A stretch of 64,000 bases of DNA from Ferrovibrio sp. MS7. Its GTDB lineage: Bacteria > Pseudomonadota > Alphaproteobacteria > Ferrovibrionales > Ferrovibrionaceae. Numbering within the stretch: position 1 is the stretch's first letter; the number at the start of each line of letters is the position of its first letter. Below the pieces are notes generated by a model. The model did not search any database. It saw only the letters and a program-made list of their open reading frames with translations, and had not been told where the DNA came from. Below are positions 21,546 to 44,868 of this stretch, piece by piece. The stretch lies in the NCBI RefSeq assembly GCF_038404985.1, contig NZ_JBBKBA010000001.1, positions 586,001-650,000 on the forward strand, read 5' to 3'. Both the position numbers and the translations under genes were made by a program.

Positions 21546-22061
21546 CTAGCGAACAATGACATCCAGGCTCTGTGCCTTGCCGGCACGGTCGATGGCGAAA
21601 TTCACCACCGGATCGCCGATCTGGGCGACATCTATGCTGAACATGAAGCCGTAGAGCTGGGTCGTCGCTGGCAATTGCAGGGCCTGCACCACATCGGGCC
21701 GCGCCTGGGTGGGGCGACCACGCGCGACAACCTTGCCCTTTGCGATGATGATCACTTCCGCCGCCGGTGCCTTTGCTTCGATATCGGCGGCCCAGCCGCG
21801 CACTTCCACCTTGTCGCCCTTGCGCTCGGCGCTCTCGAAATAGCCCCGGATGGCGGCTGACGTCGGCACCTGCTTGCCATCCTTGTCCAGCAGGCAATAG
21901 CCGCAGAAACCATAGGCGGTATCCGGTGCCGGCTGCGCCAGTTCGGCCAGCGGCGGCGGTCGGCTGTCGCGGGCGCCGAAGCCCAGCCGGGGCATCTTGC
22001 CACCGCAAGCGGTGAGCAGCAGCGGCAGCAGCAGAAACAGGGCAATACGGTCGAGACGCAT
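21546..22061 (-). CDS. Lipoprotein at the end of the synthase operon
   Basis: A 171-residue protein. A hydrophobic signal (RIALFLLLPLLLTACGGK) ends in the lipobox LTAC, so the mature protein is probably lipid-anchored. The rest is soluble, with a Pro-rich start, a CGYC pair and beta-strand-like VEVRGWAADIEA and AEVIIIAKGKVVARGRP segments. I do not recognise the family. The ATG at 22061 is used; a GTG at 22067 overlapping the ACP stop (GTGA) is possible. As the last gene of the synthase operon it may receive or hand on the lipid product at the membrane. Confidence 0.75.
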   Translation of the reverse strand: MRLDRIALFLLLPLLLTACGGKMPRLGFGARDSRPPPLAELAQPAPDTAYGFCGYCLLDKDGKQVPTSAAIRGYFESAERKGDKVEVRGWAADIEAKAPAAEVIIIAKGKVVARGRPTQARPDVVQALQLPATTQLYGFMFSIDVAQIGDPVVNFAIDRAGKAQSLDVIVR

Positions 22062-22063
22062 GA

Positions 22064-22348
22064 TCACATGGCTTTCACCGCCGGCGGTGCGGCGTCGAGG
22101 TTGGCTTCGATGAAGGCTGCCAATTCGCCAAGCGTGAGTTCCTGGCGCGGCTTGCCGCCGGGCAGCAGCAGGCTCTCATACATGATCTTGCGGCCCACGG
22201 ACTGGGTCATCAATGCCAGCAGGTTGAGCAGGTCGATGGAGGTGAGATCCAGCTCGGCGCGCATCCGGGTATCGGCGCTCATCCAGTCGGGGTCCAGGTC
22301 CTGCCGCACCTGGATGAGATTGTGCTTGATGATGTCCAGAACCGCCAT
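22064..22348 (-). CDS. Free-standing acyl carrier protein-like protein
   Basis: A 94-residue helical protein. AELDLTSIDLLNLLALM resembles the phosphopantetheine site of ACPs, with Ser37 as attachment residue; the usual Asp before the Ser is Thr. The C-terminal LTLGELAAFIEAN helix also matches ACPs. The ATG at 22348 follows GGAGACAGCC. It lies 23 bases behind a synthase that ends in a phosphopantetheinyl transferase, which is probably its activator. It may carry the starter, or a unit for the citrate-synthase-like or tailoring enzymes. Confidence 0.82.
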   Translation of the reverse strand: MAVLDIIKHNLIQVRQDLDPDWMSADTRMRAELDLTSIDLLNLLALMTQSVGRKIMYESLLLPGGKPRQELTLGELAAFIEANLDAAPPAVKAM

Positions 22349-22371
22349 GGCTGTCTCCACTGCTGATCATG

Positions 22372-25300: not shown

Positions 25301-26175
25301 AGCAAAGCCACCTGGTTGGCCGCTGCCTGGTTCTGGGCGAAATAGATGCCGGCGGGATGGCTGAAGCGCGGCTTGTCGCTGGATTTCAGCAGCTTCTCGG
25401 CCTGCGCCAGGCGGGTATCGAGTTCGGCGCGCGAGGCGGCGACGATGGCTAGCCGCGCCTTGCCGGAGAGCGGACGCAGGGCACAGCGTGCGGCGATTTC
25501 CGTCAGCGTATCGCCGCTCATCGCCTTCAGGGCGCCGAGCTGCTTCAGCAGACCCTCGCGGTCAGGCGCCGAGAGCACCACCAGTTCGGCCCGCCAGCCG
25601 CGCCGGAGCGGCAGCCGCTCGGCGGCGCCGTTGGCTTCTTCCAGATGCAGCACCTGCCGGCCGCCTTCGGCCTGCCAGCATAACGCAGCGCGGCGCGGCG
25701 CTTCGCCACCATGAATCCAGGGCAGCGGCTCGGCCTGGGCGGCATGGCGCGGCAGTGGGTAGCTGGCATCGCTCCGGCGCGGCGGCAATTCGCGGTCATG
25801 CAAGGCCAGCAGTAGGTCGCGACAGGCTTCGAGCGGCGACGCCTCGGCGGCGCGCTCCTCAACCAGCCAGCAGGCACTGCGCGGCGGCGGCACCTCGATT
25901 TGTGGCCAGCCAGCCCCAAGCCGCAGCAGCAGGCCGCATTGCGCCGCCGCCGGCATCTCGCCATCGAGCGACAGCCGCGCGATGCTGTCGGCTGCCTGGT
26001 CCGGATCGAGCCGCAGCTTTACTGCCGGTTCACCGGCCAGGATCAGCAGCGCCGGCGCAGTGTTGATTGCCTGGCGTAAGGCATCGGTGAAATCCGCTGC
26101 CGAACTGGCATGAAACACCGGCAGGGCCGGTGCCGCACCAGCCTGGATCAAGGCTATCCAGGCTTCCTGCTTCAT
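22372..26175 (-). CDS. Synthase subunit B: acyltransferase - dehydratase - phosphopantetheinyl transferase
   Basis: A 1267-residue protein. Residues 1-280 look like an eroded KS-to-AT linker, as in PfaB. Acyltransferase about 290-590: LLYPGQGTQY, GHSNGE with Ser386, QPYHTP with His498. A Gln/Pro linker lies at 630-700. Double-hotdog dehydratase about 710-1010: LRDHVFGW with His740, FHGPGF, LLDSAGQ with Asp929. Phosphopantetheinyl transferase about 1040-1250: VGIDIEP with Asp1155 and Glu1157, WCAKEAAAK with Lys1193 and Lys1198. DH plus PPTase at the C-terminus recalls enediyne-type synthases, whereas the AT is PfaB-like. In the DH motif HxxxG the final Gly is Trp. It overlaps the methyltransferase stop (ATGA). 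Confidence 0.88.
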   Translation of the reverse strand: MKQEAWIALIQAGAAPALPVFHASSAADFTDALRQAINTAPALLILAGEPAVKLRLDPDQAADSIARLSLDGEMPAAAQCGLLLRLGAGWPQIEVPPPRSACWLVEERAAEASPLEACRDLLLALHDRELPPRRSDASYPLPRHAAQAEPLPWIHGGEAPRRAALCWQAEGGRQVLHLEEANGAAERLPLRRGWRAELVVLSAPDREGLLKQLGALKAMSGDTLTEIAARCALRPLSGKARLAIVAASRAELDTRLAQAEKLLKSSDKPRFSHPAGIYFAQNQAAANQVALLYPGQGTQYAGMLRDAIRCLPGLRGWFDMLDGAYPPHLPFLPSRLLFQPHDEGSAEQKALHGLSGGGLAALIAALAGTDFLQSLGLKPAAMLGHSNGENAALVASGVLRTSTRKGVFNTLAYMSVLFSSSDRSGERIAGQCHALALPQGMDAESFASLLGPELHVTMDNCPQQKVIWGRGAALEAALQRLRNAGVICLPLPITQPYHTPLFAPIAEQFLGDYGLLDLGPGRIPLYSGLTTSRFPETKPEIVQVASGQWSAPVRFGEAIARMYEDGLRVFVDVGPGGRLAGFVRDTLRDRDHVALALDQDSRPDVSTPLRSLAQLFVLGAIDSIAALYPVPAPQPQPVAQQAAPQQQPARHIDPRIVQQHMRLMQDFLQRETRVFAAVAAKLQQESGVAAQPQQAAPGVDALPGIDALAQYGLLGIERHGDAWQARLRLTPAQQTFLRDHVFGWRRSRQQPADIGLAVLPLFMSLEIAAAAASRVAAESGGGAGLVVRRIEQVRGHRWLAADDGAIDIQLRVSPLPAKARQERRFAVALSEGEPGAALLAFDCIVDLGPGYLPAPAPLSLPGAAPPPAGMLTAAEFRDKLFHGPGFSSLERMLSIAPDGIALALTVPPQDHLFNEQKQPRLCVPGPLLDSAGQILALHEKVTTERVFGLFPYGIDSLSFHAAPAAAGSAMGCVARHRPAPGGMIGALDYLDAAGRVAVRIEGLRGHFFDWSRRWERLFFPGQKPEPLAAPLHAEPGLAACILSDFAPGFLEASHKIWLRVLAAVSLRQNEAAGFRALPGIGARQREWLLGRLVAKEAGVALIGGEHDVADLEVAGDESGGTRLLQGEAAWPCSVSHCAGFAAAAATEPGWRVGIDIEPRAAGATRLLDSGLAFTPAETQAVARHGQALLWCAKEAAAKAIGTGLMGAPTRFEILPEQPAPDLLALSVAGETVTVRLLDHPDCYAALCRLDAAVAERLAQKLAAAIAA

Positions 26176-26828
26176 GCCTTGCGGATCACCACTTCGAAGC
26201 CGATGGCGCCGACGCCTTCGCTTGTGGTGTGGATGGAACTTGTCTGGCCGAGGCCGGCGCGGTCGAGCAAGGCCGCCATCTCGGCTGGCGTCAGCTTCTC
26301 TTCCAGCGTCGTCGGGCCATAGCCGACGGCGGCCCGCATCTTGTTGAAGGCGGTGAGCACCTTTTCCGGCATGTCGCGGCGCACGTCATGGATCATGCCG
26401 ACGCCGCCGGGCTTGAGCACACGGTGCATTTCGCGCAAGGCCGCCACCTGGTCCGGCAGATGATGGATCGTGGCACGGCTCACCACCAGGTCGAGGCTGC
26501 CATCGGCATAGGGCAGCCGGGCGGCATCGCCGAGCTGCACCGTGATCCGTTGCGCCACTTTGCCCAGCCGCTCATTCGCCGCCTGCACCATGTCGTCGAA
26601 ATGCTCGATGCCGCTCAAATGCCAGGTGGCGAAGCCGGGATGCTGGCTCAGCTTTTCCAGCAGCACGCCGGTGCCGGCACCGACATCGGACAGGCTGCCG
26701 CCACTCTCGCGTGGCCTGAGCGCAGCGCAACGTTCGACGAACAGCGCGTCCCAGGGCTGGGTCGCGGTGGCGGTGTAGCGGTCGTAATCCTCTGCCGATT
26801 GCTTGTTGCGCAGGCCGGTATCCAGCAT
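26172..26828 (-). CDS. Class I SAM-dependent methyltransferase (UbiE-like)
   Basis: A 218-residue methyltransferase. SAM-binding motif I is LSDVGAGTGVLLEKL, the acidic strand-2 end is LSGIEHFDDMV, DAARLPYADGSLDLVVSRAT is motif II and LREMHRVLKPGGVGMIHDV is motif III. It resembles UbiE/COQ5-type enzymes acting on small molecules or lipids. The start at 26828 follows GAGGAGA. It lies inside the synthase operon, between the citrate-synthase-like gene and synthase B. Likely tailors the lipid product; O- against C-methylation cannot be told. Confidence 0.88.
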   Translation of the reverse strand: MLDTGLRNKQSAEDYDRYTATATQPWDALFVERCAALRPRESGGSLSDVGAGTGVLLEKLSQHPGFATWHLSGIEHFDDMVQAANERLGKVAQRITVQLGDAARLPYADGSLDLVVSRATIHHLPDQVAALREMHRVLKPGGVGMIHDVRRDMPEKVLTAFNKMRAAVGYGPTTLEEKLTPAEMAALLDRAGLGQTSSIHTTSEGVGAIGFEVVIRKA

Positions 26829-26839
26829 CGCCGTTCTCC

Positions 26840-27970
26840 TCAGAGCCAACCTTTAGGAACCATGTCGAGATACTTGCGCGCCGTGGCCGAGGTGACGCCG
26901 AAGGGCGGGCGGGCGCGGCGTTCGATGATATGCGCCAGCATGCCGATGGTGCGGCCCATCATGGCAATGCCGGCGGCAGCACCCGGATCGCGGATGCCGG
27001 CCATGGCGAAAGCCGTGCCGGTGGCGAAATCGACATTCGGCTTCAGCTTGTGTTCGGCCAGCATGACGGCACAGGCAGCCTCGAACAGCTCCAGGGCCGG
27101 ATGCGCCAGACCAAGCTCGGCGGCGCGCTGGCGCAGACGCGGCGGGCGCGGGTCTTCCAGGAACAGCGGATGGCCGAAACCGCCGATGCGCATGCCCTTG
27201 GCCAGCACGGCATCGATCACGCCCTTGATGCGCTGCTCCGGCGTGCCCTGGGGCAGCGCCAGCGCCGCCATGATCATGCCGGTGGCCTGCTCACATGCGC
27301 CGATATGCATCGGCCCTGCCGCACCAAAGCCAGCGGCGAGTGCATGATAGACCGGCACACCGGTGCCGATGGAAATGCGCGGGATCATGATGCTGGGCGG
27401 CACATAGCCGAAGCCACCAATCCAGGTGACCAGCGCATCATCGAAGAAGATGCGCGCGGCCGGCGAGGGCGGCGGCGCATCGGCCACTGCCGCCAGCGCA
27501 CGATCAACGAAACCGCCTGCCTGCGGCGGCTGCCAGTCTTTCGCCAGTTTCGTGCCGGGCTTATGCCGGCGCCAGGCAGCAAGCAGGGCCGGTATCGTCG
27601 CCGTCACCGCCAGGCCTTCCGCCGCATCGGCGGGCAGGAAATCCATGCCGGCAAAAGCCTGCTTGGCGGCGGCCTTGTCAAAGCCCATCAGGCCGGCGGT
27701 GACGGCCTGCGCCATGCCGGCGCCGCTTTCCGCCGCCAGGGCCGCCAGGCGAAAAGCCGGATGCTCTGCCGCGATGCTGCCGAGCCAGCCGGCAAGCGCC
27801 GCATCCAGCTTGGCAAGGGCTTCCACGCCGGCACGCTCGCCGGTAAGCGTGAAGGGAATGCTGCCGATGAAATCGATGCCGCCAATCAGATCGGTGAGCG
27901 AAGTGCCGCGAATCTCGAGCTTCTCCGGCTCCAGCGACACCCCATCAATATCTGTCCCGTGATAACGCAT
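26840..27970 (-). CDS. Citrate-synthase-like enzyme inside the synthase operon
   Basis: A 376-residue member of the citrate synthase fold. The three catalytic residues are kept: His222 in GPMHIGA, His267 in GGFGHPLF and Asp314 in PNVDFATG. It is shorter and much diverged from housekeeping citrate synthase, and the C-terminal RRARPPFGV replaces the usual RP.Y.G tail. Relatives include citryl-CoA lyases and 2-methylcitrate synthases. Its place between the RND pump and the methyltransferase suggests condensation or cleavage of an acyl-CoA/acyl chain with a keto acid such as oxaloacetate. Alkylcitrate synthases paired with fatty-acid-like synthases are known in fungi; the analogy is speculative. 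Confidence 0.83.
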   Translation of the reverse strand: MRYHGTDIDGVSLEPEKLEIRGTSLTDLIGGIDFIGSIPFTLTGERAGVEALAKLDAALAGWLGSIAAEHPAFRLAALAAESGAGMAQAVTAGLMGFDKAAAKQAFAGMDFLPADAAEGLAVTATIPALLAAWRRHKPGTKLAKDWQPPQAGGFVDRALAAVADAPPPSPAARIFFDDALVTWIGGFGYVPPSIMIPRISIGTGVPVYHALAAGFGAAGPMHIGACEQATGMIMAALALPQGTPEQRIKGVIDAVLAKGMRIGGFGHPLFLEDPRPPRLRQRAAELGLAHPALELFEAACAVMLAEHKLKPNVDFATGTAFAMAGIRDPGAAAGIAMMGRTIGMLAHIIERRARPPFGVTSATARKYLDMVPKGWL

Positions 27971-27979
27971 ACCCGCTCC

Positions 27980-30900
27980 CTAGACTGCTTCTGCCGGTTT
28001 GGCTTCTTCTTGCACGACTGGCGCCTTGGCGCCGAACAGCCGGTTGACCTTCTGCGACAGGGTTTCGAACAGCAGGAACAGCACCGGCGTGACATAGAGC
28101 GTCACCACCTGCGACACCAGCAGACCGCCGACCACGGCGAGGCCAAGCGGCTGGCGCAATTCGGCGCCGGCGCCGGTGCCCATGGCAATCGGCACCGCGC
28201 CGAGAATGGCGGCAAGCGTGGTCATCATGATCGGGCGGAAACGCAGCAGGCAGGCTTCGCGCACCGCTGCATGCGGATCGGTGACGCCTTCGGCTTTGCG
28301 CTGCAACGCGAAGTCGACGATCATGATGGCGTTCTTTTTGACAATGCCGATCAGCATGAGAATACCGATCATGCCGATCACATCCAGCGGGCGATGAAAC
28401 AGCGCCAGCGTGCCCACGGCACCCAGCGCTGCCGAAGGCAGGCCGGCCAGGATGGTCACCGGATGGATCAGGCTTTCATAGAGAATGCCGAGAATGACAT
28501 AGACCGCAAAAAGCGCGGCAAGCAGCAGCAGGCCCTCGCCGCTCATGCCGGCAGCAAAGGCCTTGGCATCGCCGCCAAGATCCAGCGTGATGCCGGCGGG
28601 GATGTCGATCTCGTTGCGCAGCCGCTCGATCTCCGACACCGCATGGCTTAAGGGCGTTGCATCGGAAAGGTTGAAGGACAGCGTGATCACCGGCAATTCG
28701 CCCAAGTGCGCCACCAAAGCGGCGCCGCCCGAGACCACGACGCGGCCGAAGCTTGAGAGCGGCACCTGCTTGCCATCCGACGAGCGCACGGTGAGATTCT
28801 CGATATCCTCCGGCCGCGTGCGGTATTCCGGCTTCAACTCCAGGATCACCTTGTAGCTGCTGGCCGAGGTGTAGATGCTGGCGGCCTGAGCACCGCCAAA
28901 CGCCGTGTAGAGCGTCTGGCGCAGCACATCGGCGGTGATGCCAAGATTGGTCATTCGCTGCACATTCGGCGTGAACACCAGGCGCGGCGTGTTCTGGTCG
29001 GAATCGGAGGACAGGTCGAGATAGATTTTCTCGGCCTTCATGCGGTCCTCAAGCTTGGTCGCCCATTGCTGCACCTCGTCGATATCGGTGCCTTGCAGGT
29101 TGACCTGATACTTCGCCTTGCTGGCCCGGGCGCTGGTCTGCAGCGACTGCACCGGCTGGAAATAGATCATCAGGCCCGGCACGGCCGCCGTGCTGGTGCG
29201 CAGATCGTCGATCACCTCCAGCACGGTCTTGTGGCGCGGCTCTGGCCGCTTGCGCAACTGCACGAACAAGCGTCCCGAGGAGAGCGAGGAATTGATCTCG
29301 TTGACGCCGATGATCGAGGTGACCTTGACCACATCTGGATGCTTGGAGATGATGGCGGCTGCTTCCTGCTGCATCTGCAGCATGGCGCCATAGGAAATAT
29401 CGCTGCGGCTTTCCGTGGTGGCGGAGATATAGCCGGTATCTTCCGTGGGGAAGAAGCCCTTCGGAATCTTTGCCATCATGTAGCCGGTGGCGACGAAGGA
29501 GCTGATCATCAGCAGCATTACCAGCGCCGGGTGGCGCAGGCCGAAATCCAGGGTGACGCGGTAACCGGCCAGCAGGCCATCGAAAAAGCCATCCATGATG
29601 CGGTCGAACAGCAGCGGCTTGGCACGCTGCTTTTCCGGCCGCAGCCAATAGGCGGCAAGGCAGGGCGTCAGGGTTACCGAGATGAGGCCAGAGAACAGGA
29701 TGGCGAGCGAAATGGTGACGCCGAATTCGTGAAACAGCTTGCCTACCGTGCCGCCCATGAACACCACCGGCACGAATACCATGATCAGCGACATGGTGAT
29801 CGAGATGATGGTGAAGCCGACCTCGCGGGCGCCCTCGATGGCGGCCTGCATTGGCTTCTTGCCTTCCTCGATATGGCGCATCACGTTCTCGACCATGACG
29901 ATGGCATCATCGACCACGAAGCCGATGGAGAGCGTGAGCGCCAGCAGCGAGATATTGTTCAGGCTGAAGCCCATCGCCCACATGGTCATGAAAGTGGCGA
30001 CCAGGGTTACCGGCAGGGCAACAGCCGGCACCAGGGTGGCCGTGAGGCGCTTGAGGAACAGAAAGATCACCAGCACCACCAGGCCGATGGTGAGCGCGAG
30101 CGTGAATTGCACATCGGCTACGCTGTCGCGCACCGAGGTGGTCTGGTCGAACAATTCCTCTATCTTCACGCCGGCGGGAACGCGGTTGCCCAGCGTCTTT
30201 ACCGCCTTGCGCACCTCGTCCACCACCGCCACGGCGTTGGATGTCGGCTGGCGCTGCACTGCCAGCAGAATCACCTTCTTGTCGCCGGCGAAGGAAGCGG
30301 ATTCCTGCACCTCGACGGAATCGAACAATGTCGCGACCTCGGACAACCGCACCGGCGGCTGCCCGGCGCGGTGCGCCACGATCACGTCGCGGTAGGACGA
30401 GGCATCACGCGGCTGGTTGCCGACATCGATGACAAATGATTGCGACGGGCTTTCGATGGTGCCGGCTGGCGTGGTGGAGGATGCCGCCGCCACGGCCTGC
30501 TTGAGCTGATCGAGGCCGATGCCACGCGCCGCCAGTTCATTGGGATCAACCTGAATCCGCACGGCGAAACGCTGCGAACCAAGAATCATGATCTGCGCCA
30601 CACCCGGCACCGCCGAAAGCCGTGGCACGATCACGTTCTCGGCAATGTCGTTCAACTGCACCAGACTCTGGGTTTCCGACGTCATGGCCATGAACAGGAT
30701 CGGACTCAGCGCCGGATTGAGCTTGAGATAGGTTGGCGGCGCCGGCATTTCCTTGGGCAATTGCCGCTGCGCCACCGAGAGCGCCGATTCCACATCCTGC
30801 GCGGCGGCATTGATATCGACATCGAGGCGGAACTGGATGGTAATGGAAGAACGGCCCAGGGCGGATTTAGACGAGATAGTGTCGATGCCCGGGATCGTGG

Positions 30901-31114: not shown

Positions 31115-31118
31115 GGCG

Positions 31119-33625: not shown

Positions 33626-34371
33626 GCCGCTTCCGCCTCCCCGACGATCTGATACGTGTCTTCGAACACAAAGCCGACATTGTGGAAAAGCTTCACGCCG
33701 TAATCGAGCGTGACGCGCGGGTGGAAATCCGGGAACACGATCCGCAGCTTGCCTTGTTCCGATTCCGGCGCCGCCGGATGCGGCGCGGCGTCGCGCGCGG
33801 CGATGAAGAAATCGCGCACCAAGCCGCGTTCGCCGATCCAGGCGCCGCCATTGAGATGCTTGTATTCGGATTGCGCGGCACCGGGCAGGCCGAGTTCGAA
33901 GCCGGAAAGATCCGGTGCATTCGGCCAGCTCATCTGGCAGGCGCCGAACACCATGCCGGTGCCGGTGGGAAACTCGGCCAGCAGGCGATCGACCAGCAAT
34001 TCCGGGTCGCCGGCCAGAATGGCATCGCGGGAATCGGCGCAGAGTACATACTCGGTCTCGACCTGCTCCAGTGCCTCCAGGATCGCCAGCGGCTTATGCT
34101 CGGCATTGTTCCAGACCGGGAATTGCCGTCCGGCGACAATATAGGGAATGCCGAGCCGCTCGACGCTGCTCTCGAACAGGCCCATCGCCTCATGACCGTT
34201 ATTGCAGGTGATGATGGTGACGCGCGGGCGCGGCCCCAGTTGCTGCGGCGCTTGCGCGAACACCCAGTCGCGCAACTTGGGCCAGACCGGCTTGTAATCG
34301 TGATACCCTTGAGCATGGAAGATCAGCGGCTCGGAGCCGAATTTCATGTTGCGCAGCCGGCTTGCCTGCAT
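33622..34371 (-). CDS. PLOD/procollagen-type GT-A glycosyltransferase-like protein
   Basis: A 249-residue protein resembling the N-terminal glycosyltransferase domain of lysyl hydroxylases. Motifs: VTIITCNNGHEAMGLFESS near the start, YVLCADSRDAIL with the acidic DSRD at 113-116 as a DxD-like metal site, HLNGGAWIGE at 172-181 (compare the LNSGG.IG of PLOD proteins), and a C-terminal LDYGVKLFHNVGFVFED. The ATG at 34371 overlaps the dioxygenase stop (TGATG), so the true start is there and not in the longer upstream frame. It probably adds a sugar to the operon's product; donor unknown. Confidence 0.75.
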   Translation of the reverse strand: MQASRLRNMKFGSEPLIFHAQGYHDYKPVWPKLRDWVFAQAPQQLGPRPRVTIITCNNGHEAMGLFESSVERLGIPYIVAGRQFPVWNNAEHKPLAILEALEQVETEYVLCADSRDAILAGDPELLVDRLLAEFPTGTGMVFGACQMSWPNAPDLSGFELGLPGAAQSEYKHLNGGAWIGERGLVRDFFIAARDAAPHPAAPESEQGKLRIVFPDFHPRVTLDYGVKLFHNVGFVFEDTYQIVGEAEAA

Positions 34372-35363
34372 CACGCCGCCTCTTTCAATGCAAAGGAGGG
34401 TTCGCCGATCCGCACCAGGATGGAGCGCGGCCCGCCATCGGTGTCGCGCCGGCCATGCAGGATGCGGCGGTTGTCGATCATCGCGATATCGCCCTGCTGC
34501 CAGGCAATGCGCCGCGTCAGCCGTTCCGACACCGCCTGCACATCGGAAAGCACCTCGGGCGGCAGCGGCGAACCATCCTCGGCGCGCACCACGATGGGGC
34601 AATCGGGGCTGCGCAGGCCCGGCAGATTCTGCTTCGCCCAGCCATTCTTGAACACCAGCTCGGCGATATGGATGAACAGCAGGTTGTTGATGAACACCGT
34701 GCGGCCGCCGACTTCGCGCAAGGCCGAACAGGTGAATTCGGTGCGCAGCACCTTGGCCTCGGCATCGAAGCGCATCACCAGATCGGCCTCGGCGCAGAAG
34801 CGTTCGGCTTCCGCCAAGTCATCGGTCATGAAGGTGGCCTGCCAGTCACCATCCACCAGGGCGCGGACATACTTGATGCGATTGTGGCGGAAGAAATCCT
34901 GGCTCGCGGGTTTAAGCTGGGCGAAAACTTCAGCGCCATCGGCCAGCGTGGTTTCACCATCGCGCGCCGGCGGCAGATCGGCATAGAACCAGATCAGGCC
35001 CGGCGGCTGGCGCAGGTAATACATCTCGCCATGCAGCGGGATGCCGAATTTCTGCGTATGGCCGGTGGTGGTCATCAGCGTCGGCATGCCATCCACCGAT
35101 TGGCGGTCGAGCGCCGCGAAACGCAGGCCGCCGCCCCGGTAGTTGGAGAATTCAGCCGTCAGGCGGTCGGAGAAGCTGACGAAATCCTGTTTCGATTCCT
35201 CGCGGCCCTTCGCTGTGAACCCGCGCAGCAGCAGCACACCATGGCGCTCGAACAACGCCGCTACTTCCGCCGTGGCAAGATCACTCAAGCGCCGCCCGTT
35301 GCCTTCCAGCAGCAGGCCGATATTGCCATCGACCGGCCGCACCTCCGCTAAGTCGATCCGCAT
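34371..35363 (-). CDS. TauD/SyrP-like 2-oxoglutarate/Fe(II) dioxygenase
   Basis: A 330-residue protein of the TauD/clavaminate synthase superfamily. Iron ligands are His111 and Glu113 in PLHGEMYY (a glutamate variant of the HxD motif, as in clavaminate-synthase-like enzymes) and His303 in NRRILHGRR; Arg313 in GGPRSIL binds 2-oxoglutarate. Such enzymes hydroxylate amino acids or lipid chains in natural-product pathways. The ATG at 35363 follows GGGGAGTGAAATC, within which the synthase stop lies. Likely an oxidative tailoring step. Confidence 0.88.
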   Translation of the reverse strand: MRIDLAEVRPVDGNIGLLLEGNGRRLSDLATAEVAALFERHGVLLLRGFTAKGREESKQDFVSFSDRLTAEFSNYRGGGLRFAALDRQSVDGMPTLMTTTGHTQKFGIPLHGEMYYLRQPPGLIWFYADLPPARDGETTLADGAEVFAQLKPASQDFFRHNRIKYVRALVDGDWQATFMTDDLAEAERFCAEADLVMRFDAEAKVLRTEFTCSALREVGGRTVFINNLLFIHIAELVFKNGWAKQNLPGLRSPDCPIVVRAEDGSPLPPEVLSDVQAVSERLTRRIAWQQGDIAMIDNRRILHGRRDTDGGPRSILVRIGEPSFALKEAA

Positions 35364-35367
35364 GATT

Positions 35368-38300
35368 TCACTCCCCCTGCAACGTCCCGGCTTGCAACAT
35401 TGGGCTTTCCACCCTGTTCAATGCTGCCGACTCATCGGCGAGATCGCGGTTCCAGTCGCCTTCACCGGCGATAAGTTCCACCGGACCGCTCTCGCGCAAG
35501 GCATGGCAGGCCAGCGCCACGCCGCCGGCCAGCGGAATCGGCACAATGCCGCGCTGGCGGAATTGCTCATTCACTGCCGCCGAGGCCATGCCGGCGCCGG
35601 CCCAGGGTCCCCAGTTATAGGACACCACCTTCACCGCCGGGTGACGGGCGGCGAACCACAGGGCGGCGCGGTTCAGCAGTTCGTTGGCAGCGGCGTAATC
35701 GCCCTGGCCGCGATTGCCGAAACGGCCGGCAATCGAGCTGAACAGCACCAGCCGCTCCAGCTTGGCCAAGGCCGGATGCCCGAGCAGTATGGGCAAAGGC
35801 GCCACCTTGGTCTCGAACACGCGGTCGAAGGAGTCGGGCTGCTTGTCCTGGATCAGCTTGTCCTCGATCACCCCGGCGCCATGCACCAGGGTGCCGATGG
35901 CACCGAAACGCGTCTGCACGTCATCCAGCAATGCCGACAATGCTGCCGCATCGCGGGTATCGACACCGCGCACTTCCACGCGCAGGCCGGCCTGCTGCAA
36001 GGCAGCCAGCGCCTGCGCCGCCTCGCGGTCGCGCAGGATCGCTTCCGCCCGCGCAGCGATTTCAGCCGGCTTAACCGCCTGGCCTGACGCCAGGGCCTGT
36101 TCCGCCAGGCGCTTGCGCAGGGCATTGGCCTCGCGGCAATCGGGATGCGGATCGGCTTCCGGCAAGCCACGACGGCCCAAAGCGATCAGCGTGGTGCCGG
36201 GCGCAGCGCTTGCGGCCAGCATCGCGGCGGTAATCCCGCGCACGCCGCCGGTGGCAAGGATCACGCCACCCGGAATGGCCGCTGCGGTGGATGTGCCGGC
36301 ATAGGCAAAGGGCTGCGCCTCGAATACGGTGCGGCCAAGCGGGGCATAGCCGACCTCGACGCGGCCCGGCTCGAAGGCGAGTTCGGCAAGCAGGATGTCC
36401 GCAAGCCGCGCCGCCGCCATGTCTGGCGCGAAATCCAGCGCGCGGGCAGCGATGGCGGGATGTTCGATGGCCAGCGTATTGAGGAAGCCGAGCGCGGCGC
36501 CGGCGCTGCAGGCCGCCAGGCTTGCCGGCGCGGCGGCGCCGAAATCATTGCGGCCGAAACAGCCGCCCAGGCTGGAACAGGCGAAGACACGGCTTTTCAC
36601 CGGATGCGGCGCGGCGAGGTCTTCCAGCACAAGCTGCACCGCGCGGTAGAGTGCCTTCACGCCGCGCGCATTGGCCTCGCTCCATGCCATATCTTCGGGG
36701 ATGCTGAAGCCGGAAAGCTGCACCAGGCCGCGCACCGGGCCATGTTCGGCGCGGGCGGCGCGGATCGCTTCCGCCTGCGCCGCCGGCTCCTCGGGCAGCA
36801 CCGCCACCACCAGGCCACGCGAAGCCAGAGCGCGGGCGATTTCATGGGTAATCGCTTCTGGTCCCGGCAGCAGCAGGAACAGGCCCTTCAGCCGCCAGGG
36901 CATGTTTGCCGGTAGGGGCGCCAGGCGCGGTGCCATGGCGAAGGCCGGGCAGCTATCAATAGCGGGTGCCGTGGAGGAAGATTGAGCCGCGTCCGCCGGC
37001 ACCGGCACGGACGCGGCAACATCGGCGGCGACATCCTTGGCGCCGCCAGATTCATCCTCAAGCGCGGCCAGGATCGCCTCCACCCATTGCCGCAGCACCT
37101 TGACCCGCGCGGTGCGTTCGGCCCCGGCGCGGAAACGCTGCGAAGCCGCCGGCGGCAGGGCCGCCAGCACGCGCTCGATCATCTCCAGCCGCTTGATCGA
37201 GTCGACGCCCAGTTCGGCCTCGATATCCTGCTCCAGGTCGATCATCGCCAGCGGATAGCCGGTACGCTCGCTGACGATGTCGCGCAGCAAGGCCTCGGCG
37301 CCACTCTTATCCAGGCGCGGCGCGGCGGCAGCAACTGGGGCAGCAGCAACGGGAGCAGCGGCAACAGGCGCGGGCGCAGCCATCGCCACAGGGGCCGGCA
37401 CAGGAGCAGGCATCGCTGCCGGCAATACCGGCATCGGCGCAGGCGCAGCGTAAGGTATCGGTGCTGCCGGCTGGCCGCCGAGCATCAGGTTCATCACCTG
37501 CTCCTGGGTCTGCAGGAACTGGCGCATCGTCGCCTGGTATTCGGCATAGGCGGCAAGCAGCTCGCTGCCGCCCCCCATGCTGCCAGCGCCAATGCTGGGC
37601 GGTCTTTCTGCTGCCATGTTGTCACCATGGTTGGTCTGGGAGGGATTATTCTGGGAGGCAGGCGCGGCGGCCGGCGAATTGATATCGCGCAAAGCCGGGC
37701 GGTGCGACTTGAACGGCGAGTCACTGCGCGCCGGGCGCACCTGCATGGCATCAATGATCCAGGTAGTGATCGCCGCTTCGCGTGTCGCCAGTTCAGCCAG
37801 GGTTTCAAGCGGGCGTGATGCCGCCTGCGGCAGCAGCCGGGCCAGGTCGAGCGGCTGGCCCTCGGCCCACAGTACCGCCAGCACGCGCAGCAAACCGCGC
37901 AGGCCGCCGCCGTCATCGACATGCAGCACGCGGACGTCGCCGTCTTTCAAAATCTGCTTGGTCAGATGCGCCAGCACGCCGCCCGGGCCGAGTTCGACGA
38001 ACAGCCGCGCGCCGGCAGCAGCAAGGCCGCGCACCTGGGCCACAAAATCCACCGCATCGGTCATCTGCGCTGCCAACTGCGCTTTCAGCGCCGGCACGTC
38101 ATCGGGAAAGGGCCGGCCATCGCGGGTGGCATGCACCGCGAGGCGGGATGGCGGCTTGACCGTTGCCGCCGCGATGGCCGCGCCGAGCGGCGCCTGGGCG
38201 TCGCGCATCAGCGGCGAATGGAAGGCACCGCCAACATTGAGCAGGCGGCAGGGAATGCCCTCGCCTTCCAGCAGCGCCACCAGGCTTTCGATCTCGGTGC

Positions 38301-41300
38301 TGGCGCCCGACAGCACGATCTGCTTATCGGAATTGATATTGGCGATCACCACATTGGGGAAAGCGGCAAGACGCGGCTGCAATGCCTCGCGGCTGGCGGA
38401 AACGGCACACATGCGGCCGGCGGGTGCCGCCGCCATGGCACGGCCGCGCGCCAGCGACAGCTTGAACAAAGTGGCCCGGTCCATGGCGCCGCCGGCATAG
38501 AGCGCGGCATATTCGCCATAGGAATGGCCGGCGGCGAAAGCCGGGCGGGCGCCAAGCCGGTGCAACAGGTCGATAAGCCCGGCCTCCACCGCGCCGAGCG
38601 CGATCTGCGCCACCGCCGTGTTGGTGAGTTTCGCCGCCTGCGCCTCGCGCGCCGCACCATCGAACACCGCTGGCGGATAGATCAGGCGGCTCAGGCGGTC
38701 TGGCAGCATGTTGGCGGCCTGGGCCTCGGCGGCTTCGATGCTGGCGCGCAGTTCCGGCATGTAGACAGCGATATCGCGGCACATCTGCAGCCGCTGGCTG
38801 CCCTGGCCGGGGAACAGCAGGGCCAGCGGCATCGCGCCGGCCGCCTTGCGCGCGCCGGCCCAGGCATCCTGCGGCAGCGGCTGCGCGGCATCCTCGAGAT
38901 GACGCCGGATCGCGGCAAGGCCTTCAAGCAAGTGCTCCTTGCCGGTGGCAACCAAGGTGAAGCCCCAGGCTGCGGCAGGATCCATCCGCTCGGCCAAAGC
39001 GGCGGCGATCTCGAACAATTCGATGCTGGCGCCATCGGGCGTGTCATGCCGTGCGGCGCGTTCCAGCAAGGCGATCTCGCGCAGCAGGCCAGCTTTGTCA
39101 GCGGCAGAACCGGCAAACAGATAGGCCGGCCAGGCAGCGGCACCGGCAGTGGCTGTTCGACCGGGATCGTATTCCTCCAGCACCGCATGGGCATTGGTGC
39201 CGCCGAAGCCGAAAGCCGAGAGGCCGGCGCGGCGCGGCCGGTCGCCGCCAAACCAGGGCTGCGGGCCATCGCTGACATAGAGCGGTGAATCCGCTTGGCC
39301 GATCGGCTGCAACGGCCGCTCGATGCCGGGCTGCGGCGGAATGGTGCGGTGATGCAGCGCCAGCGCCACCTTGGCCAGGCCGACGGCGCCGGCTGCCGTC
39401 TTGGCATGGCCGATCAGCGCCTTCACCGAACCAAGCGCACAGCTCTGCGCCGCCGCGCCAGCATCTTTCAGCAGGCCGCCGACGGTTTCGAGTTCGGCGC
39501 GGTCGCCCACCGCCGTACCGGTGCCATGCGCTTCGTAGAAACCGAGGCCGGCAATCGAATGCCCGGCGGCTTCATAGGCACGGCGCAACGCGCGCTTCTG
39601 CCCGATCGGGCGCGGCGCGGTCATGCCCAGCCCCTTGCCGTCGCTGGAACTCGCCACCGCCTTGATCACGGCATAGATGCGGTCGCCATCGCGCTCGGCA
39701 TCAACGCGGCGCTTGAGGATGAAGGCGGCGACGCCCTCGCCCAGCACCGTGCCATCGGCGGCCTGATCGAAGGCGCGCAGCTTGCCGCTCGGCGACAGGG
39801 CCGAGACGGCGGAGAAGGCAATGTAGTGATACGGCGTCTGGGTGGTGTCGGTGCCGGCCAGCACCGCCACATTGGCACGGCCTGAGCTGAGTTCGCTCAC
39901 CGCCAGTGATAGCGCCGTGATGCTCGACGCGCAGGCGGAGTCGATGGTGAAATTGGCGCCGCCGAAATCGAAGCGGTTGGCGATACGCCCGGCAACCACG
40001 CTGGTGAGGATGCCGGGGAAGACTTCCTCGCTCCAGCCCTGCGTATGGGCGCGCACCTGCGCCACCGCAGCCGCGTCGCTGACCAATGGGGCGAGCGCGC
40101 GGGCGATCAGTTCATTGCCGAGATAGCCACCGGCATCCTCACCGGCCACGATCACGGCGGTATGCTCGCGGTCGAAGCTGCGCGTCTCATAGCCGGCATC
40201 GATCAGCGCGCGGCGCACCATTTCGAGCGTGAGCAACTGCCCCGGCGCGATATCGGGCACCGCCTTGGGCGGAATGCCATAGCGCAGCGGATCGAAGGCC
40301 AAGCCATCAATGAAGCCGCCCCAGCGGCTGGAGATATGGTCCGGCTTGTTGCGCTCCGCCGAGTAGTAGAGGCGCCAATCCCATCTGTCGGCGGGGATCT
40401 CGCGGATCGCCGCACTCTTATCCAGTACATTGCGCCAGAAGCCATGATGGCTTGTAGCGCCCGGCACATGCATCGCCATGCCGATGATGGCGATGTCGCA
40501 GGCGGCGCCGCTCGATGCCGGCGCCGCGTCCTGCCCGGCCAGCGCGCCAAGCCTTGCCGCCGCGCCATCGCAGACCTCCGCATGCAGCGCCGCGATGCTG
40601 CTGACCTGGCCGATCTGTGCCGCCGCCTCGCCGGCCATGAACATGCCTTCCGCCTGCTGGCGCATGGCATCCACCGCCACCAGATCCGCGCCCTGGCGCT
40701 CGACCCCCTTGGCGGCAACGCGCAGGCGGCCGAGCAGCAGATCGTCCAGCGCTTCGCGCAAGGCATCGCCGCTCAGGCCTTGGCGCAGCAGGCGGCGGCG
40801 TTCGGCCTGGAAGAAATCGGCGAACGGCGTGGCCAAGCAGCGATTGGCGTGGCCGCGCCCGCTTTCCAGATTGCTGGTGCCTTTGGCCGCCACCACGGCC
40901 TGCTGGAAGGCCGGCGTTATGGCGCCAGTGGCGGTGATTTCCTCGGTCGCCAGATAGGCGGTGCCCATCAGGCAACCGATTTTGGCGCCGGCGGCAACCA
41001 GCGGCGCCAGCGCGGCCGCGGCCATGGCGGCGGTGAGGCCATCATGCACGCCGCCAGCCAACAGCAGCGAGAGGTCGCCGGGCTGTTTGGTTTTGAGCAA
41101 TTCAGCGCCGATGCTTTCCCACAGCAGCAGCGAATGCAGCGGACCGACATGGCCGCCGCATTCGCGGCCTTCCAGCACCAGCCGCTTGACGCCGCGCTCC
41201 ACCAGCATGCGCGCCAGCGCCGGGGTCGGCGCATGCACATAGGTGACAATGCCCTCGGCTTCGAGATGCAGCGCCTGTTCGGCGCGGCCGCCGGCGATCA

Positions 41301-42732
41301 GCGCGAAAGGTGGCTTGGCCTTAAGCACTTCCGCCAGCTGGGCATCGAGCTGGTCCGGCGGCAGGAAGCCGAGCAGGCCGACGCCCCAGGATTGCTCGCC
41401 CAGCGCCGCCTTGGTTTCCTGCAGCACGCGGCGAACTTCGTCGGGCTTCAGCACCGCCAGCGCGATCATCGGCAAGCCGCCGCCCGCCGCCACGGCATGC
41501 GCGAAGCCCGGCACATCGCTCACCCGCGTCATCGGGCCTTGTACGAGCGGATAGCGGCTGCGATGCGCTTGTGCCAACGGCACCTGTTCGGCCGCGAATT
41601 GCGTTGCCAATATTGGGGCCTGCTGCGCCAGCGCGCCCGGCACGGCGCGCACGGCGGCGACCAGCCGGCCAAGCGAGCCATGGCTGTCGCGCATGATTTT
41701 CGCCAGACCGATGCCCTGGCCGAGCGGCCAGACCGCATCGGGCGTGGCAAGCGCAGTCTGCGCCGCCTCGATCCAGGCCCGGCGTGCCGCGTCCGGTTCG
41801 AGGCCGGCAGCCTCGATTTCCAGCGCGCGGGCTTCCAGCGCCCGCGACGCCGGGAAATGCGGATGCAGCAGGATGCGCAGCGGTGCGCCGAAGGCCTCGC
41901 CAAGCACGGCGGCTTCCTTGCCATCCAGGCTTTCCAGCAGGCGGCGGCGCTGGGCGCCAAGGCCGAATTCCGGCAGGGCGATTTCCGGCAGCAGCCAGAG
42001 GATATCGTCCAGCACCACCCCAGCAGCGCCAGCAACATGGGCTGCAGCGGCACCCTGCACACCGAGGCCGCCGCGCAGCAGCCAGGGCGGCATCGCTTCC
42101 AATTCATCGCCGAGCCGGGCCATGGCGCGGCCAAGCAGCAGGCTCGACATCTCGCCGCACCAGCCGCCGGCTTCCTCGCCCACCGCTACCAGGCCGGAGA
42201 CCCGGCTATCGGCGGCGGCCTGGCGCAGCACCGCCATATTGCCGCTTTCGATCCACAAATCCTGCGCCGCCGGCAGCGCGCAGGCAGCTTGCAGCGCCGC
42301 CGTATCGGCACAGGTGATCAACAGCAGGGCGCCGGGCCAATGGCGCGCCTGGGCTTCGGCAAGAGTGGCGAGGCCGGGCATCCCGGCCTCGACGCGAAAG
42401 GCCAACAAAGGCAACGGCGCGCCGACAGATCCCAGATTGGCGGGAGAGAGACTTGGCAGCAGCCGGTCGGTGAGCTTGGCGGCCCATTCGGCGAGATCGG
42501 CGGCGGTGAAACCGGCCGGCAGATCGAGCAGCGGCAGGCCACCAGCGCGCAGCACCGCGACAACAGCTTCAAGACAAGGGGCGGCGGAGAGAACAGATGG
42601 AACCGGCAGGCGGATAGCGCAGGTGAAGTCGAGCGCGGGAATAGCGGCTTCAGCCGAGGCCATAGCCTGGCCAGCCATGTTCATGCCAGCCTGGCGGCGC
42701 TGCCGGAACTCAGTATCCCCCGCGTGATTCAT
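35368..42732 (-). CDS. Synthase subunit A: PfaD-like FMN domain - KS - AT - ACP - KR
   Basis: A 2454-residue type I synthase. Residues 1-385: poorly conserved, perhaps a decayed barrel. About 391-690: nitronate monooxygenase/PfaD-like FMN barrel (RYPLVQGPMTRVSDVPGFAH, VLEGRECGGHVGPLHS), likely the enoyl reductase. KS 745-1190: DSACASS with Cys934, EAHGTGT with His1069, GHAKTAAG with His1109. AT 1300-1610: GHSYGEY with Ser1404, AFHSPL with His1505. Ala/Pro linker 1755-1805. One ACP about 1810-1890: ELGVDSIKRLEM with Ser1845, the PUFA-synthase style motif. KR 2155-2430: ATGGVRGITA, FSSIAG, YAAAN with Tyr2346. No CLF domain and no thioesterase. The ATG at 42732 follows GGAGGT by ten bases. Iterative lipid or polyketide synthesis is inferred. 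Confidence 0.9.
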   Translation of the reverse strand: MNHAGDTEFRQRRQAGMNMAGQAMASAEAAIPALDFTCAIRLPVPSVLSAAPCLEAVVAVLRAGGLPLLDLPAGFTAADLAEWAAKLTDRLLPSLSPANLGSVGAPLPLLAFRVEAGMPGLATLAEAQARHWPGALLLITCADTAALQAACALPAAQDLWIESGNMAVLRQAAADSRVSGLVAVGEEAGGWCGEMSSLLLGRAMARLGDELEAMPPWLLRGGLGVQGAAAAHVAGAAGVVLDDILWLLPEIALPEFGLGAQRRRLLESLDGKEAAVLGEAFGAPLRILLHPHFPASRALEARALEIEAAGLEPDAARRAWIEAAQTALATPDAVWPLGQGIGLAKIMRDSHGSLGRLVAAVRAVPGALAQQAPILATQFAAEQVPLAQAHRSRYPLVQGPMTRVSDVPGFAHAVAAGGGLPMIALAVLKPDEVRRVLQETKAALGEQSWGVGLLGFLPPDQLDAQLAEVLKAKPPFALIAGGRAEQALHLEAEGIVTYVHAPTPALARMLVERGVKRLVLEGRECGGHVGPLHSLLLWESIGAELLKTKQPGDLSLLLAGGVHDGLTAAMAAAALAPLVAAGAKIGCLMGTAYLATEEITATGAITPAFQQAVVAAKGTSNLESGRGHANRCLATPFADFFQAERRRLLRQGLSGDALREALDDLLLGRLRVAAKGVERQGADLVAVDAMRQQAEGMFMAGEAAAQIGQVSSIAALHAEVCDGAAARLGALAGQDAAPASSGAACDIAIIGMAMHVPGATSHHGFWRNVLDKSAAIREIPADRWDWRLYYSAERNKPDHISSRWGGFIDGLAFDPLRYGIPPKAVPDIAPGQLLTLEMVRRALIDAGYETRSFDREHTAVIVAGEDAGGYLGNELIARALAPLVSDAAAVAQVRAHTQGWSEEVFPGILTSVVAGRIANRFDFGGANFTIDSACASSITALSLAVSELSSGRANVAVLAGTDTTQTPYHYIAFSAVSALSPSGKLRAFDQAADGTVLGEGVAAFILKRRVDAERDGDRIYAVIKAVASSSDGKGLGMTAPRPIGQKRALRRAYEAAGHSIAGLGFYEAHGTGTAVGDRAELETVGGLLKDAGAAAQSCALGSVKALIGHAKTAAGAVGLAKVALALHHRTIPPQPGIERPLQPIGQADSPLYVSDGPQPWFGGDRPRRAGLSAFGFGGTNAHAVLEEYDPGRTATAGAAAWPAYLFAGSAADKAGLLREIALLERAARHDTPDGASIELFEIAAALAERMDPAAAWGFTLVATGKEHLLEGLAAIRRHLEDAAQPLPQDAWAGARKAAGAMPLALLFPGQGSQRLQMCRDIAVYMPELRASIEAAEAQAANMLPDRLSRLIYPPAVFDGAAREAQAAKLTNTAVAQIALGAVEAGLIDLLHRLGARPAFAAGHSYGEYAALYAGGAMDRATLFKLSLARGRAMAAAPAGRMCAVSASREALQPRLAAFPNVVIANINSDKQIVLSGASTEIESLVALLEGEGIPCRLLNVGGAFHSPLMRDAQAPLGAAIAAATVKPPSRLAVHATRDGRPFPDDVPALKAQLAAQMTDAVDFVAQVRGLAAAGARLFVELGPGGVLAHLTKQILKDGDVRVLHVDDGGGLRGLLRVLAVLWAEGQPLDLARLLPQAASRPLETLAELATREAAITTWIIDAMQVRPARSDSPFKSHRPALRDINSPAAAPASQNNPSQTNHGDNMAAERPPSIGAGSMGGGSELLAAYAEYQATMRQFLQTQEQVMNLMLGGQPAAPIPYAAPAPMPVLPAAMPAPVPAPVAMAAPAPVAAAPVAAAPVAAAAPRLDKSGAEALLRDIVSERTGYPLAMIDLEQDIEAELGVDSIKRLEMIERVLAALPPAASQRFRAGAERTARVKVLRQWVEAILAALEDESGGAKDVAADVAASVPVPADAAQSSSTAPAIDSCPAFAMAPRLAPLPANMPWRLKGLFLLLPGPEAITHEIARALASRGLVVAVLPEEPAAQAEAIRAARAEHGPVRGLVQLSGFSIPEDMAWSEANARGVKALYRAVQLVLEDLAAPHPVKSRVFACSSLGGCFGRNDFGAAAPASLAACSAGAALGFLNTLAIEHPAIAARALDFAPDMAAARLADILLAELAFEPGRVEVGYAPLGRTVFEAQPFAYAGTSTAAAIPGGVILATGGVRGITAAMLAASAAPGTTLIALGRRGLPEADPHPDCREANALRKRLAEQALASGQAVKPAEIAARAEAILRDREAAQALAALQQAGLRVEVRGVDTRDAAALSALLDDVQTRFGAIGTLVHGAGVIEDKLIQDKQPDSFDRVFETKVAPLPILLGHPALAKLERLVLFSSIAGRFGNRGQGDYAAANELLNRAALWFAARHPAVKVVSYNWGPWAGAGMASAAVNEQFRQRGIVPIPLAGGVALACHALRESGPVELIAGEGDWNRDLADESAALNRVESPMLQAGTLQGE

Positions 42733-44090: not shown

Positions 44091-44822
44091 TTAGGCAGCT
44101 TGGGGCTGCGGCGCCGGGTCGGCGTCGATCACCACCTCGTCGGCGGATTTCGGCTTGCGCTTGAACAATTCGGTGGCGCAGGCCTTGCCGCGGGCATAGA
44201 GGTCACGGAAATAGGCGCCGTTGGATTTCGGGCTGAAATCCACCAGCGTGCCGCCCATTTCGAAATGGCCGATGAAGACCTTGCCGATGGCATAGGTCAT
44301 CGCCGCATTGGCCACCGGCAGCGCGATCAGACCTGCCGCCGTGCCGGCGCCGGGAATGAACTTGGCCACGCTGAGGCCGGCAACGAGGGCGATGCCGGTG
44401 GAGCTGAGCGAACCGGCGAGGCTCATCACCACGGCGCGCGCGGTGCTCTCCTTGAACGGCACCTCATAGACACCACAGAGGCGCTTGACCAGCATCACCT
44501 GCGAGGCCAGGCCGGCGGCGATATCGAGCAGCGGGAAGGGCAGCACACCGACGCCGATGGAGACCAGCATGTGGTCCTTCACCATAGTCTCGGCGCGCTC
44601 CTGGCGGCTCTTCGGCGCATCGGCGGCAAAGCCGGGGGCGTCGGTGCTGGCGGCTTCGGCGGCTACGGCCTCGGCCTGGGTCTGCTCGTTTGCATTATCC
44701 ATGATCTGGTCGTCTCCGCTGGAAAGGGATTTCTTGCGTGCCATGTCAGTTGCCTCGTCGGGGTTTCCGGAAAAACGCCGGCGAATGATCCGCTTCGCCA
44801 CCATTCGGTACAGAAACAGCAT
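44091..44822 (-). CDS. DUF697-family membrane protein (YcjF-like)
   Basis: A 243-residue protein. The N-terminal 80 residues are charged and Ala/Glu-rich. The core, RAETMVKDHMLVSIGVGVLP to AMTYAIGKVFIGHFEMGGT, carries Gly-rich hydrophobic helices typical of DUF697/YcjF-like proteins, whose role is unknown; the PFPLLDIAAGLASQVMLVKRL segment is characteristic. The start at 44822 is backed by AAGGAGAAGCGACG; internal ATGs at 44744 and 44702 also have purine-rich leaders, so the start is uncertain. Direct repeats lie in its upstream region. Confidence 0.8.
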   Translation of the reverse strand: MLFLYRMVAKRIIRRRFSGNPDEATDMARKKSLSSGDDQIMDNANEQTQAEAVAAEAASTDAPGFAADAPKSRQERAETMVKDHMLVSIGVGVLPFPLLDIAAGLASQVMLVKRLCGVYEVPFKESTARAVVMSLAGSLSSTGIALVAGLSVAKFIPGAGTAAGLIALPVANAAMTYAIGKVFIGHFEMGGTLVDFSPKSNGAYFRDLYARGKACATELFKRKPKSADEVVIDADPAPQPQAA

Positions 44823-44868
44823 CGTCGCTTCTCCTTCGGCGCTGCCATGCTGCCAGTATGTGCCTGTG

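Follow-up and report, generated by a model that had tools for sequence, protein, structure and literature searches.

The systems closest to the operon considered here, which occupies positions 21546 to 42732 of a 64,000-nucleotide stretch of the genome of Ferrovibrio sp. MS7 (contig NZ_JBBKBA010000001.1, positions 586,001 to 650,000; the whole stretch is called the window in the following), are described below. Among the synthases, that of Beijerinckia is classed by Shulse and Allen (2011; PMC3098273) as Type P, the phenolic-lipid type of the Ars systems, and the roles of the ars operon (arsABCD) in Azotobacter are given in PMC4824345. Fused pfaDA and pfaBC genes without a ketosynthase (KS)-chain-length factor (CLF) pair are known from Ottowia, and Aquimarina and Flavobacterium of the Flavobacteriales carry pfaDA together with pfaBC-phosphopantetheinyl transferase (PPTase), Renibacterium being closely similar; in the megapolipeptins, a Pfa-type chain carries an appended diacid moiety, in the formation of which a SEPHCHC synthase is believed to participate (PMC13291983). 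Citrate-derived ends are found in other products. The afc cluster (AFC-BC11) contains afcS for a citrate synthase, afcT for a methyltransferase and afcU among its oxidoreductases, and BolR and BolS of the bolagladin (bol) cluster are named as homologues of AfcS and AfcT (PMC12186527). BolR makes citrate in vitro, and deletion of bolR or bolS leads to loss of the citrate-derived or the O-methyl part (PMC7756342), a logic that is repeated by the afcS and afcT mutants (PMC12186527). The entry of the citrate unit differs, as it serves as starter in bolagladin (PMC7756342) and is coupled late in AFC-BC11 (PMC12186527).

The eleven genes of the Ferrovibrio operon are best read from their sequences as a pathway dedicated to an exported long-chain lipid that would carry a citrate-derived end and be O-methylated, hydroxylated and glycosylated, a reading to which we assign a probability of roughly 0.55. 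All eleven genes lie on the minus strand, running from 42732 (or a GTG at 42744) down to 21546, and the ten junctions measure +4, -4, -4, -4, +4, +9, -10, -4, +11 and -4 bp, counted from the synthase end. With all of them within -10 to +11 bp, the tight single-strand operon with overlapping genes described in an earlier note on this DNA is confirmed. The operon proteins were scanned against Pfam and NCBIfam, with scores set against the cut-off of each model, and the domain content given in that note was recovered apart from one label, PfaB. The cluster is probably larger than these eleven genes, because the three further genes at the end of the following list also adjoin the synthase in a related plasmid (see below).

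35368..42732, minus strand: synthase chain 1, flavin mononucleotide (FMN) enoyl reductase (ER; PfaD-type)-KS-acyltransferase (AT)-acyl carrier protein (ACP)-ketoreductase (KR) (Pfam/NCBIfam; ATG at 42732, GTG at 42744 possible)
34371..35363, minus strand: TauD-type Fe(II)/2-oxoglutarate oxygenase (PF02668, 120 bits)
33622..34374, minus strand: glycosyltransferase related to the collagen-lysine glycosyltransferase domain (PLOD/LH3) (GT_PLOD-like, 23.6 bits)
32267..33625, minus strand: TolC-type outer-membrane protein (PF02321, 166.6 bits)
31119..32270, minus strand: resistance-nodulation-division (RND) membrane-fusion protein (MFP) (TIGR01730, 238.1 bits)
27980..31114, minus strand: RND (ACR_tran) efflux pump (PF00873, 935.1 bits)
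26840..27970, minus strand: citrate-synthase-like enzyme, AfcS type (PF00285, 108.3 bits; AfcS tree clade)
26172..26849, minus strand: S-adenosylmethionine methyltransferase, AfcT type (Pfam; afc-type loci among the best plasmid matches)
22372..26175, minus strand: synthase chain 2, KS stump/linker-AT-dehydratase (DH)-PPTase (Pfam; stump from alignment to relatives)
22064..22360, minus strand: stand-alone ACP (weak NCBIfam match; 66% to SC52 counterpart, Ser kept)
21546..22067, minus strand: predicted lipoprotein (sequence; LTAC lipobox)
46363..47982, minus strand: ATP-binding cassette (ABC) exporter, cyclic-peptide-export type (TIGR01194, 289.7 bits)
45071..46366, minus strand: SPFH/Band 7 (prohibitin-like) protein (PF01145, 84.8 bits)
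44091..44822, minus strand: DUF697-type protein (55% to an SC52 protein matching PF05128)

The proposal of an exported, glycosylated or methylated lipid, which the earlier note had already made, is supported by the tailoring genes being kept with the synthase in two phyla; the new class to which it had been tied did not stand up, as shown below. Plasmid pSC52_2 (CP049030.1) of the Rhodobacteraceae bacterium SC52 (Alphaproteobacteria) carries seven core genes in the order of the window, coding for synthase chain 1 (50% identity), TauD oxygenase (60%), glycosyltransferase (62%), citrate-synthase-like enzyme (47%), methyltransferase (54%), synthase chain 2 (41%) and ACP (66%), followed by genes for a 74-amino-acid protein and for the ABC (65%), SPFH (58%) and DUF697 (55%) proteins. 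The cassette occurs in rearranged form in an uncultured Bizionia bin (Bacteroidota; L068, L069), where synthase chain 1 (39%), a KR, a lipase-like protein, TauD (39%), glycosyltransferase (41%), methyltransferase (44%), citrate-synthase-like enzyme (30%) and a second methyltransferase (38%) are encoded on one strand and synthase chain 2 (27%) and ACP (32%) on the other. This locus additionally contains genes for two GT28 glycosyltransferases, a YdjC protein, an oxidoreductase and a DegT aminotransferase, which points to an amino-sugar-bearing variant. Stretches of 36 to 55 kb around the four next relatives of the KS (G348, G644, G558 and G561) gave no match to the TauD oxygenase, the glycosyltransferase or the citrate-synthase-like enzyme, and one 48-residue match to the methyltransferase in G558. 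Since three members have the cassette and these four do not, it follows one KS clade.

In wider surveys, the glycosyltransferase matched a single plasmid record among 72,556 (SC52), 1 of 18 genomes in the order of the window (its own, a 72%-complete genome of the same species giving no match), 1 of 179 in the family of G303 (G303 itself) and 0 of 229 in the class of G348, the last value being uncontrolled because no genome of that class is known to hold the gene. The citrate-synthase-like enzyme matched 1 of 289 genomes in the class at E <= 1e-25, again its own. Synthase chain 2 found 24 of 61 relatives at E <= 0.001, mostly through the AT alone, and 2 of 289 genomes in the class at E <= 1e-30, one of them partially; at E <= 1e-25, it matched 25 of 398 genomes in the phylum, extending beyond the AT in six besides its own (G348, G644, G558, G532, G561 and G385), and 5 of 395 in the phylum of G303, with full length in G303 only. 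A scan with six exact peptide patterns returned Bizionia as the only relative from 18 matching stretches, and says little on rarity because of that yield and of the patterns being exact and only six.

The assignment of a citrate end is based on the citrate-synthase-like enzyme and its neighbour. In a tree of 19 sequences, the enzymes from the window, SC52 and Bizionia form a clade with two AfcS-type proteins from Burkholderia (99/99; 99/98 in a tree of 17 rows that leaves out G348c and G198c, the BolR sequence lying outside the comparison). The clade is recovered without Bizionia (100/98), and Bizionia still joins AfcS when the window and SC52 are removed (96/96). All five proteins share the motifs G-F-G-x...P-[ST] and P-x-H-[ILV]-G-[AT], housekeeping enzymes having a His-containing stretch at the first of these sites, and the residues which we take to be the catalytic H, H and D, by citrate synthase numbering, are kept in the window. 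The methyltransferase matched 385 of the 72,556 plasmid records; among the best 12 of these, SC52 comes first, followed by two afc-type loci (6e-52 and 5e-51), and the other nine are at 9e-8 or weaker. We identify the unannotated record L071 as an afc locus, because its gene content (citrate synthase, methyltransferase, TauD) fits the published afc list. At four loci (window, SC52, afc locus and Bizionia), the gene of the citrate-synthase-like enzyme has that of an AfcT-type methyltransferase beside it, and in L071 a TauD gene comes after these two. The likeness to afc and bol thus covers the AfcS/BolR-type and AfcT/BolS-type enzymes and the TauD gene after the methyltransferase in L071, whereas these pathways are joined to peptides of the nonribosomal peptide synthetase (NRPS) type and draw their chains from ordinary fatty-acid metabolism, no synthase of the Pfa/Ars type being reported in the available parts of the two accounts (PMC12186527, PMC7756342).

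A role of the citrate-synthase-like enzyme limited to the supply of acetyl units by citryl-CoA cleavage, the product then being a plain long-chain glycolipid that is methylated elsewhere, is unlikely. In NCBIfam, citryl-CoA lyases head the matches of the protein, but far below the cut-off (92.7 vs. 245 bits), and in the 19-row tree no group comes closer to the AfcS-type clade as a whole than these lyases (98/99), a relation with which the tests made are compatible. However, a lyase clade that takes in the window and SC52 but leaves out AfcS is rejected (p-AU 0.0098, for a group picked after the tree had been seen), the D-H-G motif of the lyases is missing, and the AfcT-like methyltransferase is a neighbour at all four loci mentioned, so that a putative lyase role is held to be the weaker one.

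The TauD oxygenases of the window, SC52, Bizionia and the afc locus all keep the H-x-E motif and the distal H. The glycosyltransferase remains below the cut-off of the GT_PLOD-like model (27 bits), which its Bizionia homologue matches with 44.1 bits, and a profile from two of these sequences, run against solved structures, retrieved R699 (9dyt, 1e-6) and LH3 (6wfv, 5e-5). A D-S-R-D motif is invariant in the glycosyltransferases of the window, SC52 and Bizionia and presumably corresponds to the metal site of LH3. As LH3 unites a hydroxylase and a glycosyltransferase in one protein and the TauD oxygenase and the LH3-like glycosyltransferase are encoded by neighbouring genes here, the analogy suggests that the pair may catalyze hydroxylation and then glycosylation.

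A number of observations weigh against a pathway to a citrate-ended lipid. Only three members of the cassette have been found here, the branches of the citrate-synthase-like enzymes are long, above all that of Bizionia (as also indicated by a program warning), and the Bizionia enzyme has an E in place of the catalytic D. The His of the H-x-x-x-x-S-T stretch of housekeeping enzymes is missing in the citrate-synthase-like enzyme, as it is in AfcS, and the TauD oxygenase is only 28% identical to the product of the afc-locus gene. BCAS0207, a citrate synthase of the Burkholderia cenocepacia afc cluster, is reported to be dispensable for antifungal activity (PMC6301696), and inactivation of afcF leads to the same products as that of afcS (PMC12186527). 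Neither the flavin adenine dinucleotide (FAD)-oxidase of L071, which we infer to have the role of AfcF, nor the AMP-binding proteins of the afc locus gave a match in the window with its 20-kb flanks or in the SC52 and Bizionia stretches. Finally, none of the operon proteins matches a thioesterase or acyl-activating family of Pfam, which leaves chain start and release unexplained; the Bizionia cluster has a lipase-like gene.

As judged from the profile matches, the two chains complement each other and together carry the catalytic set of an Ars/Pfa-like iterative type I fatty-acid synthase, including its own PPTase. Chain 1 (2458 amino acids from the GTG) consists of an FMN barrel (FabK model at 397-726, 77.6 bits; NMO, 34.2 bits), a KS with the motifs DSACASS and HGTGT, an AT with GHSYG, one ACP and a KR, and chain 2 (1267 amino acids) contains an AT, a DH with His and Asp kept and a PPTase with its motifs kept. 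The free ACP belongs to no Pfam family and scores weakly in NCBIfam (25 bits vs. a cut-off of 65); it retains its Ser and is aligned with the SC52 counterpart at the identity given above. The single ACP within chain 1 plus a separate one, as well as the missing CLF and thioesterase, had been correctly noticed before; with only one KS in the operon there is no KS-CLF pair. In contrast, the AT of chain 2 cannot be called PfaB-like (pfaB_fam, 16.5 bits vs. a cut-off of 144.3), and the claim of a new architectural class had to be given up. When profiles made from the domains of the window were run on 38 stretches (one of which, L025, overlaps G303), the same fused order of chain 1 was detected in SC52, G348, G644, G558, G561, Beijerinckia indica pBIND02 and Streptomyces sp. 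NBC_01243, with two ACPs in G561 and Beijerinckia and, in G348, G644 and G558, a weak additional DH match at the end; in Bizionia, the KR is encoded by a separate gene. Because this fusion recurs and the pfaDA-pfaBC systems of Ottowia and the Flavobacteriales are published, a new synthase architecture was rejected.

The chain-2 homologues of G348, G644 and G558 start with a KS (residues 159-612, 406-859 and 185-640, respectively), and residue 123 of chain 2 from the window aligns to their residues 547, 794 and 575 near the KS end (E between 1e-11 and 3e-10), so that chain 2 of the window seems to retain a KS stump; for the Streptomyces chain, no such match was obtained. No KS core was detected by the domain scan in chain 2 of the window, SC52 or Bizionia, most simply explained by loss of the KS.

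The KS tree comprised 45 rows, with three FabF-type rows as outgroup and Pfa-type rows labelled by architecture only, and was built without named Pfa, Azotobacter, HglE, enediyne and WcbR references (the duplicate L025 had been left out of a 48-row tree, and Persicobacter KS2, L030 and L036 were additionally left out here). The window and SC52 group together (100/100) and with Bizionia (100/99) in a clade of three, which is joined by G561, G348, G644 and G558 (100/99) and then by Beijerinckia, Streptomyces NBC_01243 and L074 in a clade of ten rows (98/93), the branching order within these two wider sets being partly unresolved. The 11 Pfa-type rows form a separate clade (100/98) outside of which the KS of the window falls, and a faster 48-row tree gives the same picture (100, 99, 99 and 91). 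The earlier note had expected the KS not to lie well inside a characterised clade; it does group with the Type P synthase of Beijerinckia, but within a subclade of its own for which no product is known.

This relation invites the view that the synthase, like those of the Ars type, feeds a partner enzyme elsewhere in the genome, while the tailoring genes act on another molecule. The Type P layout of an ER-KS-AT-ACP-KR chain and a DH-PPTase chain is present, and the domain order and the KS grouping with Beijerinckia indica pBIND02 both fit, but we consider this improbable, since the tailoring genes are part of the same tight operon and accompany the synthase in two phyla, and no type III polyketide synthase (PKS) occurs among the operon proteins, unlike in Ars loci. 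Beijerinckia further differs by two genes annotated as beta-ketoacyl-ACP synthase III (KAS III) between the chains, by two ACPs and by a DH-PPTase chain without the extra AT found in chain 2; its 20.6-kb stretch has a glycosyltransferase annotated next to the synthase, but no citrate synthase, methyltransferase or TauD gene. It is very improbable that the operon, like the Pfa systems of marine producers, makes a polyunsaturated fatty acid destined for membrane lipids, since chain 1 reaches 869.5 bits with the PfaA model TIGR02813 but stays under its cut-off of 1010.1, tandem ACPs, a KS-CLF pair and two DH domains are absent (one ACP in chain 1; chain 2 being KS stump-AT-DH-PPTase), the KS is placed outside the Pfa-type rows, as labelled by architecture only, and exporter genes adjoin the synthase.

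Compared by description only, Ottowia thiooxydans shares fused pfaDA, pfaBC without KS-CLF and a glycosyltransferase with the window, but there the genes are joined to PKS-NRPS genes, and no citrate-synthase-like gene is mentioned in the available part of the source (PMC13291983). The chain-building pair is of a described type and the tailoring set is new; its pairing with this synthase type looks new, as the gene set was not found described in the literature searched, subscription journals mostly falling outside it. A related glycolipid-like cluster lies on the plasmid of Streptomyces sp. NBC_01243 (L079, 12985-27959), where the same ER-fused synthase is accompanied by KS-AT-DH-PPTase, an ACP, a hydrolase, a glycosyltransferase and a methyltransferase; this stretch contains no match to the citrate-synthase-like enzyme.

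Regarding export, the RND-MFP-TolC pump reported in the earlier note is indeed present as a whole within the operon, but none of its three proteins has a match in the SC52 or Bizionia stretches, and it was rejected as a defining part of the cluster. The exporter common to the window and SC52 is the ABC-SPFH-DUF697 unit, which had been overlooked; it lies upstream of the synthase genes in the window and downstream in SC52. The ABC protein passes the model for cyclic peptide export, TIGR01194 (cut-off 286.2), and its top row is NF007813 with 296.5 bits, far below the cut-off of 604. The same trio adjoins an annotated NRPS and a TauD gene in Azospirillum argentinense and lies about 5 kb from a frame with NRPS-like motifs (from simple patterns, not profiles) in Tistrella mobilis pTM3, where RND and MFP homologues are also present in the stretch; SPFH alone is found near an NRPS-like frame in Caballeronia NK8. 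None of the three was found in the Bizionia stretch, and SPFH matches 2 of the 18 genomes of the order of the window, its own and G007 (37%). The coordinates of the trio are 44091-47982 in the window, 10024-13667 in L070, 4162-9038 in L111 and 21519-25079 in L113.

In the proposed pathway, the PPTase would arm the ACPs, and KS, AT, KR, DH and ER would extend the chain from malonyl units. The AfcS-like enzyme would condense an acetyl thioester with oxaloacetate to a citryl unit, whose hydroxyl would be methylated by the AfcT-like enzyme. This unit might either be loaded on the synthase as starter, a step in which the second AT and the free ACP may take part, or be added to the finished chain. 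The TauD enzyme would then hydroxylate the lipid and the collagen-lysine-glycosyltransferase-like enzyme add a sugar, perhaps on the hydroxyl made by TauD, before the ABC-SPFH-DUF697 unit carries the product across the inner membrane and the RND-MFP-TolC pump, which appears inserted in the operon in the MS7 genome, takes it outside. In a bolder version, possible but clearly tentative, the lipids would be of the bola type and form a new family: the citrate synthase product would prime the iterative Ars/Pfa-type synthase so that the chain starts from O-methyl-citrate, the TauD and glycosyltransferase pair would hydroxylate and glycosylate it, export would be by an SPFH-assisted ABC protein, and the genes would have been transferred horizontally between Pseudomonadota and Bacteroidota.

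Some further features of the locus may be mentioned. The predicted lipoprotein at the operon end contains LTAC, which we take to be a lipobox; it belongs to no Pfam or NCBIfam family and has no homologue in 16 relative stretches. A small ion-channel-like gene (43041-43724) lies between the DUF697 gene and synthase chain 1, 308 bp upstream of the latter, and has no counterpart in the SC52 stretch. Past the 3' end of the operon and an FMN_bind_2 gene, a tetratricopeptide repeat protein with an O-GlcNAc-transferase-type (GT41) match of 61.9 bits is encoded on the plus strand (18657-20789). ARAGORN called a tRNA-Trp antisense within the ABC gene (46968-47060), which is probably a false call, and the sole island test made, which looked in the window for exact repeats of 16 to 30 bases from the tRNA-Thr at 49375, found none.

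The recurrence of the ABC-SPFH-DUF697 unit near lipid and peptide synthases suggests that it may serve more generally in the export of amphiphilic metabolites. The operon would join iterative chain building of the Pfa/Ars type with citrate-derived fatty-acid ends, which are separate in the literature cited, and the structure proposed is specific enough for a search by mass spectrometry, for which the marine plasmid and the Bizionia bin may serve as points of comparison.

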